Origin: an uncultured Acidimicrobiales bacterium
GTDB taxonomy: Bacteria > Actinomycetota > Acidimicrobiia > Acidimicrobiales > SZUA-35
Assembly (NCBI GenBank): GCA_937922045.1
Contig: CAKZXA010000001.1
Coordinates: forward strand, 62,001-126,000
Direction: 5' to 3'
DNA: 64,000 nucleotides
Below, piece by piece: positions 47,607-49,454 of the stretch. Position 1 is the stretch's first letter. Each line of letters begins with the position of its first letter. The notes beneath the pieces were generated by a model. The model was given only the letters and a program-made list of their open reading frames with translations. It was not told the DNA's origin and searched no databases. The position numbers and the translations under genes were made by a program.

Positions 47607-48446
47607 CTACACCTGGGTGTTACAGAAGAACACAGGGTGATGCTTGAAGCTGGTTTTGTTAATCGGTTCGCGTGATCGAGGGCTCATCTCCCCCGCCTTG
47701 CCGAAAACGGCCAGATGATCGCCGAATTCACCCGGTTCACCTAGGAGATCGAGGAAGGGGCGATCCTCGAGCGACGTGCCTCGATACTTGATCGCATCGT
47801 GCAAAACGCCGACCACGGATCGGTAAAGACGCCGGATCTCTTGGGTTGACAGCTCATGAGAGCTTCGATCGTGACGCAGACCTGAATCGAACAGGATTTC
47901 GTTCGAATACACATCGCCGATGCCAACGAAAACGGTGGAGTCGGTGAGCAACAACATCAGCGGCATCTTGTAGCCGATGACGAGACGGCCGAAGTCGACC
48001 CAGGAAAGAGGGCTTTCGAGAAGATCGAGGCCAACGTCTTCCACCGGTGGCAGGGCCGACTCAACCTCCTCAGAAAGCACGATCTGCAGCGAGCTGGAGC
48101 CCTTGCGATCGGTGAAGTGGAGGTCACCGCCCTGCGTGAAGGAAATGATGGCGGCAATGTCCGAGGCGACCTCGGCTCGACCGCCCAGCTTCTGTATCCG
48201 ACCATTCTCACCCAGGGCGAGAACAACCGTATGCTCATTGTCGAAGTCGATAATGATGTGGAGGCCCTTGCGGGTCACCCCCACAACTTTGGCACCGATC
48301 AGCTCGGAGCCAAAGTCTTTCTTGGCTTTGAGGCCGGGAAGCGATTTAAGCACATGTGCTTCAGCCCCTTTGACCTTTCGCCCAACCATCTCACGTTCGA
48401 GATCGCGGCGTAGCGTTTCGATTTCAGGCAGCTCAAGCTGACTCAT
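47607..48446 (-). CDS. Fpg/Nei (MutM)-fold protein lacking catalytic residues
   Basis: 279-aa homologue of formamidopyrimidine-DNA glycosylase in the usual mutM position between rnc and smc. The fold is clear: LELPEIETLRRDLEREMVGR, VALALGENG-like LALGENGRIQ, VGIGDVYSNEILFDSGL and HLAVFGKAGE. Active enzymes have Pro1 directly after Met; here the start reads MSQLELPEIET, so the Pro position is Leu4 and two residues precede it. The catalytic Lys in R-R-x-K is replaced (RKGLHII), the Asn of GNIYASE is Asp, and three of four zinc-finger Cys are gone (EMSPRSREP, FFCNTQ). GGAG lies 9 nt before ATG 48446. Probably DNA-binding or structural, not a glycosylase. Confidence 0.88.
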   Translation of the reverse strand: MSQLELPEIETLRRDLEREMVGRKVKGAEAHVLKSLPGLKAKKDFGSELIGAKVVGVTRKGLHIIIDFDNEHTVVLALGENGRIQKLGGRAEVASDIAAIISFTQGGDLHFTDRKGSSSLQIVLSEEVESALPPVEDVGLDLLESPLSWVDFGRLVIGYKMPLMLLLTDSTVFVGIGDVYSNEILFDSGLRHDRSSHELSTQEIRRLYRSVVGVLHDAIKYRGTSLEDRPFLDLLGEPGEFGDHLAVFGKAGEMSPRSREPINKTSFKHHPVFFCNTQV

Positions 48447-49158
48447 CGAGATCATCTCCATTTCCCGATTGTTCCAATACCGCCGCGTAGGCCGATCGTG
48501 CCGCCACCTGTTCGGCTCTTTTCTTCGAAGACCCAACCCCGCGCCCCCGTGGCGCGCCATCAACGATCGTTACGGCCGTAAACACCTTGTCGTGATCAGG
48601 CCCTGCACCGGTTATCTCATAAACCGGTGCTCCCAGCGCCATACGGGCGGTGAGTTCTTGCAGTTGTGTCTTGTAATCCTTGCGCCCCGGCTCAGCGGCG
48701 GCGTCGACAATGGCATCTGAAGTCTGGCCGAGTATGACCAGTGCTGCCGCATCCCAGCCACCGTCGACATAGACGGCGCCGAAGATGGCTTCAAGCGCAT
48801 CGGCCAGGATCGATTCCTTTTCCCGCCCACCGGATTGATCTTCACCTTTGCCGAGCAAAAGGAGAGGTCCAACACCAAGCTCAAGGGCCAGCTCAGCCAG
48901 GGTGATCGTGTTGACGACCGAGGCTCGAAGCTTCGCCAGTTGCCCTTCGGGCAGATCTGGGTAGTGACGAAAAATGTGGTCGGTGACCACAAGACCGAGG
49001 ACCGAATCACCAAGAAACTCAAGGCGTTCGTTCGAGTCGTCTGTCTCGTTCTCCGCGCAAAAACTGCGATGAGTGAGCGCGAGCGTCAGTAGCTCCGGCT
49101 CATCGAATCGATGACCGAGACGCTCACAGAACGAGGACAGGTCGACCTCGTGACTCAG
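48433..49158 (-). CDS. rnc: Ribonuclease III with apparent CUG start
   Basis: Double-strand RNase for rRNA and mRNA processing. The frame encodes 241 residues from a CTG at 49158: LSHEVDLSSFCERLGHRFDE, then ELLTLALTHRSF, the catalytic NERLEFLGDSVLGLVV, ADALEAIFGAVYVDGG, and a dsRNA-binding domain (YKTQLQELTARM, GSSKKRAEQVAARSAY). No ATG, GTG or TTG lies between an upstream in-frame stop and the catalytic motif. The first canonical start (GTG 48990) would delete the active site. The CTG overlaps the acpP TGA as CTGA, with AGGGG 7 nt upstream. Confidence 0.9.
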   Translation of the reverse strand: MSHEVDLSSFCERLGHRFDEPELLTLALTHRSFCAENETDDSNERLEFLGDSVLGLVVTDHIFRHYPDLPEGQLAKLRASVVNTITLAELALELGVGPLLLLGKGEDQSGGREKESILADALEAIFGAVYVDGGWDAAALVILGQTSDAIVDAAAEPGRKDYKTQLQELTARMALGAPVYEITGAGPDHDKVFTAVTIVDGAPRGRGVGSSKKRAEQVAARSAYAAVLEQSGNGDDLDESA

Positions 49159-49454
49159 GACGTTGCCCCTGCTTTCGACTCGACATAGTCGACGGCATCA
49201 CGAACACTCTTCAGGTCTTGCAGGTCTTCATCCTCAATCCGGAATCCGACCGTTCGGTCAGAGAGTTCTTCTTCAAGGGCCTCGACCAGCTCGATAAGGG
49301 CCAGGGAATCAGCTTCGAGATCATCGGCGAACGAGTCGCCCTCTCGGATTTGGTTGGGCTCGATCTCTAGAATATCGGCAAGCCGATCGCGCACGAGCTC
49401 AAAGATCTCAGCGCGCGTCATCGGGTGTCGTTCCATATGGGTTTCAGCCGGCAT
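49155..49454 (-). CDS. acpP: Acyl carrier protein
   Basis: Carries acyl chains on phosphopantetheine in fatty-acid synthesis. The 99-aa product has TRAEIFELVRDRLADILEIE, the attachment motif DDLEADSLALIELVEALEEE with the DSL serine, and a C-terminal helix (SVRDAVDYVESKAG). AGGAGG precedes a GTG (49463) by only 2 nt and ATG 49454 by 11 nt, so ATG 49454 is preferred; ATGs at 49436 and 49421 are also possible. plsX-acpP-rnc is a common arrangement. Confidence 0.9.
   Translation of the reverse strand: MPAETHMERHPMTRAEIFELVRDRLADILEIEPNQIREGDSFADDLEADSLALIELVEALEEELSDRTVGFRIEDEDLQDLKSVRDAVDYVESKAGATS

Follow-up and report, generated by a model that had tools for sequence, protein, structure and literature searches.

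Between rnc (RNase III) and smc, the window analysed here, a 64,000-nucleotide stretch of the genome of an uncultured Acidimicrobiales bacterium, carries a gene, P0001, which descends from the MutM (Fpg) of the rnc-mutM-smc operon. P0001 belongs to a single clade which is under strong purifying selection and from whose aligned sequences the residues that this DNA glycosylase uses for catalysis and for probing damage appear to have been lost. All three genes lie on the minus strand, with rnc upstream and smc downstream, and the 3′ end of rnc extends 14 nt into P0001 (Table 1). An earlier note, made from the letters alone, had described a catalytically dead MutM homologue with a good ribosome-binding site in the canonical mutM position. 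The boundaries which it gave for the gene were exact, the NCBIfam matches of the two neighbours (228.5 and 834 bits) bear out the position, and a GGAG motif stands 9 nt ahead of the ATG. A frameshift in rnc, suspected from a short open reading frame, was rejected, as the frame is open and the RNase III match spans residues 25–239 of 254.

Table 1 Features of P0001 and of its neighbourhood, in positions of the window.
Feature	Position	Strand	Basis
P0001, degenerate MutM/Fpg homologue, 279 aa	47607..48446	minus	open frame, Pfam, NCBIfam, alignment, AlphaFold2
Leu4 codon, column of the catalytic N-terminal Pro	48435..48437	minus	alignment
Leu62 codon, column of the beta-turn Lys (K57)	48261..48263	minus	alignment
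FTQGG loop, residues 103–107; F103, T104, Q105 and G107 lineage-specific, kept in ingroup intact and degenerate proteins	48126..48140	minus	conservation
Asp178 codon, column of the GNIY Asn (N168)	47913..47915	minus	alignment
QEIRRLYR stretch, H2TH-domain helix, residues 202–209; Q202, E203, R205 and R209 lineage-specific in both forms	47820..47843	minus	conservation, model
Former zinc finger, residues 255–277; Cys columns S255, S258, C275, T277	47616..47684	minus	alignment; C-terminal hairpin persists in AlphaFold2 model
GGAG, Shine-Dalgarno-like, 9 nt 5′ of the P0001 ATG	48456..48459	minus	judged by eye
rnc (RNase III)	48433..49197 (stop to stop)	minus	NCBIfam TIGR02191, 228.5 bits (cut-off 166.25); Pfam Ribonuclease_3 and dsrm
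smc, downstream of P0001	43997..47503	minus	NCBIfam TIGR02168, 834 bits (cut-off 567.35)

In a profile search P0001 matched the Pfam families Fapy_DNA_glyco (PF01149; 59.4 bits, cut-off 25.5) and H2TH (PF06831; 46.7 bits, cut-off 34.7). These matches, together with a structural alignment to MutM (Z 32.4), give it the N-terminal beta-sandwich and H2TH domains by which the Fpg/Nei structural superfamily is defined. Its scores nevertheless fall below the NCBIfam equivalog cut-offs, both for PRK01103 (147.8 against 212 bits) and for fpg (TIGR00577; 140.3 against 203.3 bits), whereas intact proteins from the same locus, used as controls, pass the former (L131, L046 and L054, with 292.5, 312.8 and 307.8 bits). 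The PRK01103 cut-off is also passed by L043, an intermediate form (254.9 bits), and by L001, a second Fpg of the window's own genome (247.2 bits), and is narrowly missed by the Microthrix-type intermediate L042 (204.7 bits).

A GTDB genome scan, from which the best 80 of 547 confirmed loci were used, contributed to the set of locus proteins. Removal of exact duplicates, Fpgs from outside the locus, a repeat fetch (L003), partial rows (L049, L051 and L057) and a protein with unknown letters (L123) left 110 proteins, on which the charge, residue-count, conservation and substitution-rate figures rest. Among them 89 are degenerate, 5 are intermediate (in three lineages) and 16 are intact. The numbers given for P1, K57, M74, R109, F111 and N168 follow E. 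coli Fpg, and the roles of these residues and of the zinc Cys are those of established Fpg structures; replacements such as L62 and D178 carry the numbering of P0001.

P0001 begins with MSQLELPEIE where MutM has MPELPEVE, placing Leu4 in the column of the catalytic Pro after two extra residues. In MutM the Pro directly follows the initiator Met, and at none of the in-frame ATGs upstream of the P0001 start (..MEMISMSQ..) does a Pro adjoin the Met. The beta-turn Lys is replaced by L62 (Lys is kept in 1 of 89 degenerate proteins against 16 of 16 intact ones) and the GNIY Asn by D178 (kept in 12 of 89 against 16 of 16). Of the four zinc-finger Cys residues C275 alone remains, the others being S255, S258 and T277, and the first, second and fourth are absent from every degenerate protein (0/89). 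The column of the zinc-finger Arg holds H270, with Arg found in 25 of the 89. Each of these replacements had been read correctly in the earlier note. Absent from its list were the DNA-intercalating wedge of M74, R109 and F111, each kept in 0/89 degenerate and all three in 16/16 intact proteins, and a phosphate-binding His, all of which are also replaced in P0001. At least two of P1, K57 and N168 are lost in 89/89 degenerate proteins, and all three in 68/89; Pro occupies the P1 column in eight, five of which begin MPELPE or MPDLPE and three of which carry it after extra residues. The clade keeps E2 (84/89), E5 (89/89), Tyr170 (89/89) and Glu173 (89/89). Zinc-less members of the Fpg/Nei superfamily, of the plant FPG, NEIL1 and MvNei1 type, have a finger hairpin without zinc but keep its Arg and the N-terminal Pro; P0001, with His in the Arg column and no such Pro, is not of this type.

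The fold itself is predicted to be intact, as the earlier note had supposed. An AlphaFold2 model built from an alignment of 58 proteins had a mean predicted local distance difference test score (pLDDT) of 93.0 and a predicted template modelling score (pTM) of 0.89. Its best Foldseek match was 1r2y, MutM bound to DNA containing 8-oxoguanine (oxoG), with an E value of 3.6e-28, and VIA-align superposed it on 2f5q with Z 32.4 and a root-mean-square deviation of 2.7 over 271 residues. The model aligns with MutM over residues 4–279, thus keeping the whole two-lobed Fpg fold, and the C-terminal hairpin (strands 263–267 and 270–274) still forms in it without three of the zinc ligands.

Within 61 genomes (the window's own and 60 relatives), an orthologue of P0001 was found in 33 of the 37 that belong to the window's family, the identity outside the window's own genome being 50–72%. 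None of the four family genomes in which it was not found (G004, G007, G032 and G033) combines a completeness of 90% or more with contamination of 5% or less, and among the family genomes that do, by rounded figures, retention was 20/20. No stop codons were seen inside the gene among the matches listed for the relatives' genomes. The titles of the records among the best 80 of 547 loci name Acidimicrobiia, Acidimicrobiales, Acidimicrobiaceae, Candidatus Microthrix and unplaced actinobacteria, and one (L120) Acidobacteria. With limits of 400 nt upstream for rnc and 2000 nt downstream for smc, and the same strand required, both genes flank 81 of 89 degenerate, 5 of 5 intermediate and 14 of 16 intact genes. 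Four of the ten misses have short flanks (L014, L094, L140 and L050), and for two (L025 and L034) a longer version of the locus (L078 and L083) does contain smc. In the remainder, smc is missing from L008 and its longer copy L066, from L105 and from L062, and rnc from L038, these being either real misses or undetected genes. In L038 (window family, G031) the 2991 bases upstream of the degenerate gene gave no match to RNase III, nor did the 3946 bases upstream in its longer copy L087, and smc follows; the locus may be rearranged or its rnc diverged.

A tree was built from 94 of the 110 rows (rows more than 93% identical being dropped), with the 16 scored columns left out and 200 bootstrap trees. 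The degenerate form is a single clade of 89 distinct proteins with support 99/85, and a single change sufficed in 100% of the 200 bootstrap trees, which answers the question, put in the earlier note, of whether the form is a conserved clade. Outside it branch, stepwise, L042, then L048, then L043 and then the intact proteins. L042, of the Candidatus Microthrix type, has Ala for Pro, Arg for Lys and Pro for Asn with all four Cys kept; L048 keeps the Pro and four Cys, with Leu for Lys and Pro for Asn; L043 keeps Pro, Lys and four Cys and has lost Asn, Met and Phe. As read from the tree, the order of loss appears to be wedge residues and Asn first, Lys next and zinc ligands last, the relative order of L048 and L042, both long branches, being less sure. 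A single change accounts for each of the columns of Met, Phe and the three Cys, and two for that of Lys; Pro, with six changes, and Asn, with four, have therefore changed repeatedly. The end branch of P0001 measures 0.31, against 0.12–0.15 in its closest sisters.

We estimated the ratio of nonsynonymous to synonymous substitution rates (dN/dS) by the Nei-Gojobori method (NG86) in disjoint pairs with dS above 0.05 and at most 1.2. In 23 close pairs of the degenerate clade, five of them from the window's family, the median was 0.102 (0.016–0.262), near that of the matched part of rnc at the same loci (0.119, 22 pairs), with 0.042 for the N-terminus of smc (19 pairs). The window's own gene enters no pair, being too far from its nearest sisters to form one. 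The few, diverged intact pairs gave 0.294 (n=3), with rnc (0.295) and smc (0.190) likewise raised. Furthermore, 41 positions show conservation of 97% or more throughout the degenerate clade, and newly conserved residues include S255 and P146. The same degenerate form occurs in L129 (AG-410-I20), whose record is not labelled as a metagenome-assembled genome and which we take, going by its name, to be a single-cell genome. A pseudogene or an assembly artefact is contradicted by the retention, by the lack of stops in the listed matches, by dN/dS and by L129, and we reject decay for the degenerate clade, which these rates indicate to be under strong purifying selection. The earlier note had preferred a new non-glycosylase role to decay, and single-clade origin, retention and dN/dS near 0.1 support this, the loss of activity and the role itself being read from sequence. 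It had also named two findings that together would count against it, an intact homologue in the same place in sister genomes and pseudogenisation here: the first exists, as 16 distinct intact MutM proteins in other families of the order, and of the second there is no sign.

The window's genome holds five Fapy_DNA_glyco genes. One of them, L001, has the Fpg motifs (MPE, the Lys, GNIY and four Cys) and passes the NCBIfam cut-off; it is an intact-looking Fpg elsewhere in the genome, such as the earlier note had advised looking for. A genome was counted as having such a second Fpg if it contained a full-length match about 50% or more identical to L001; one part of this test took 37 of the 80 named loci. 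An L001-type Fpg was found in 61 of 71 genomes with a dead locus against 0 of 18 with an intact one, as well as in all four genomes of L048, L042, L141 and L142; three dead-locus genomes (G006, G081 and G089) gave a partial match only. Among 79 other genomes sampled from the phylum, L001-type genes were found in 13 (E of 1e-60 or better, 47–53% identity) and in none of the five which belong to the window's own class, a pattern that fits acquisition from elsewhere in the phylum. A further Fpg-family gene of the window's genome, at 919–1770 of L004 (contig C37, minus strand), starts MPEMPEIQ and keeps the beta-turn Lys, has GLGRMLANE in place of GNIY (Arg for Asn) and misses the PRK01103 cut-off (113.6 against 212 bits); it may be a more divergent member of the family.

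Basic residues that face the DNA groove have been lost, others being kept. In the degenerate clade basic residues are lost or variable at positions 37, 38, 62, 77, 96, 98, 115 and 270, and partly at R34, and are kept in at least 97% of proteins at 13, 14, 18, 26, 59, 194, 205, 206, 209, 220, 257 and 259. P0001 itself has Met164 where 99% of degenerate proteins have a basic residue. Mean net charge is +6.8 in intact proteins (n=16), −1.7 in degenerate proteins outside the window's family (n=56) and −3.0 inside it (n=33), with −8 for P0001. We called a residue lineage-specific when it was at least 90% conserved both in the 89 degenerate proteins and in 12 intact proteins of the ingroup, and found in no more than 30% of seven reference Fpgs. 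The contrast between second Fpg and dead locus given below used 81 of the 94 rows, leaving out L043, three partial cases and untested rows. Sixteen residues qualified: K53, F103, T104, Q105, G107, R110, G189, L190, Q202, E203, R205, R209, K220, R259, I262 and V279.

We favour, with moderate confidence, the reading that P0001 is a pseudo-glycosylase which has been retained for binding rather than for catalysis. Glycosylase and lyase activity are very probably absent from the window's family, to judge by the residues it lacks; with less support, we lean towards the Fpg-type DNA clamp being gone and a docking role having been kept through the H2TH face and the FTQGG loop. A second Fpg would have taken over the repair of oxidised purines, or would already have performed it, freeing the operon copy, which would now serve for binding without catalysis, its product being synthesised alongside RNase III and SMC. 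Because the wedge, the phosphate contacts and basic residues of the groove are lost, the clamp is probably gone. The retained face (N-terminal helix, H2TH domain with R194, R205, R206 and R209, FTQGG loop and the re-shaped hairpin of the former zinc finger) would most likely dock a protein or nucleoprotein partner, for which the operon and the H2TH fold, and these only, suggest RNase III, SMC or the ribosome as candidates.

Several observations weigh against this reading. An L001-type Fpg is lacking in 7 of the 71 dead-locus genomes (G014, G031, G061, G067, G080, G083 and G085) and in the genome of L043 (0/1), where loss has begun. On the tree, second Fpg and dead locus amount to one independent evolutionary contrast, so that the link between them is suggestive and no more. 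The net charges of intact proteins (−1 to 12) overlap with those found in the window's family (−8 to 5), and L001, which looks intact, has a charge of 0, which makes net charge a weak argument for lost DNA binding. A conserved H2TH domain is equally expected of a DNA-binding protein. The kept N-terminal Glu pair, Tyr170 and Glu173 could serve residual chemistry or only the fold, and the degenerate clade does not look uniformly dead, given the five MPELPE or MPDLPE starts and the twelve proteins with Asn168.

Three further claims were considered and set aside. With one independent pair it cannot be proved statistically that gain of the second Fpg brought about the loss, net charge is too weak a proof of lost DNA binding given the value for L001, and a role for P0001 as regulator of the second Fpg is weakened by the seven genomes without such an Fpg, which include those of L119, L126 and L129. 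These last three form a branch of small genomes (1.4–1.9 Mb) in which the degenerate operon copy is kept and no L001-type Fpg was found; the reason may be a true absence of any typical Fpg or gaps in the assemblies.

We regard as a tentative possibility that the operon MutM of this lineage already had two jobs, the pseudo-glycosylase now performing the second alone, a new, non-repair function tied to RNase III, SMC or the ribosome. The sixteen lineage-specific residues were already present with the catalytic set intact and stayed after its loss. Shared descent explains the agreement of intact and degenerate groups, but alone does not explain such conservation at protein identities of often only 40–60%.

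A rival explanation, and a doubtful one, is a non-catalytic binder of DNA or RNA which would recognise structure (a flipped base, a junction or an RNA helix) through the H2TH domain and shield it or hand it to RNase III or SMC. The H2TH stretch is no less conserved in degenerate proteins (mean entropy 0.90, n=89) than in intact ones (0.99, n=16), its part of the protein gives weak, sub-threshold Pfam matches to NFACT_N (E 0.035) and Ribosomal_S13 (E 0.072), the operon is shared with rnc and smc, and the kept basic residues, position 59 apart, would suit such a role; the basic positions that are lost, variable or, at 34, partly lost and the absence of the wedge in 89/89 speak against it. It seems unlikely that P0001 has remained enzymatically active as a monofunctional glycosylase or hydrolase, relying on the kept N-terminal Glu and on the capping loop with no Schiff base on Pro. 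E2 and E5 are kept as given above, and R229, P230 and F231, presumably part of the former oxoG capping loop, are invariant in the 33 proteins of the window's family, but Lys57, the wedge and the phosphate grips were lost together and Asn168 is lost in 77 of 89. For mycobacterial Nei2, moreover, one report (PMC11323726) gives Pro2 and Lys51, not Glu3, as essential for apurinic/apyrimidinic lyase activity. A relic in slow decay, held in the rnc-smc operon through polarity or coupled translation, would fit the 14-nt overlap and the scatter in the lost catalytic columns (F, L, Y and others at P1; D, E, P, A, N and others at 168), but is very improbable given the low dN/dS, the absence of stops inside listed matches, the 41 conserved positions, and newly conserved residues such as S255 and P146.

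To our knowledge, few conserved pseudoenzymes are known among DNA glycosylases. P0001 resembles MutM in its whole fold, its H2TH domain and the E2 and E5 of its clade, as well as in its place, since Mycobacterium fpg1 also adjoins rnc (PMC2734929); it differs in lacking the N-terminal Pro, Lys57, Asn168, the wedge and the four-Cys zinc site. According to the same paper, M. tuberculosis Fpg2 (Rv0944) is a truncated Fpg homologue, likewise actinobacterial and without the catalytic N-terminal residues, whereas P0001 is full length and in the canonical locus. AlkD2 (PMC4433238) is a bacterial DNA-glycosylase homologue that keeps the fold, binds DNA weakly and has no excision activity; its fold, of the HEAT-like repeat family, is unrelated, however, and it occurs beside AlkD, whereas here the operon's own MutM lost the catalytic residues. 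We found no description of the degenerate operon MutM form in the open-licence PubMed Central literature, a scope outside which most subscription journals lie.

The history of this gene can be read at one syntenic locus, from intact proteins through stepwise intermediates to a long-kept degenerate clade, which makes the order of loss and the retained surface directly testable. It also carries a warning for annotation, as Pfam cut-offs would pass the degenerate genes as mutM while a different gene probably encodes the working Fpg. Should the lineage-specific residues be the mark of a second job, MutM may sit next to rnc and smc for reasons beyond chance housekeeping. Across a large group of Acidimicrobiia this gene has been kept in its old place between rnc and smc, probably for a role that differs from DNA repair.
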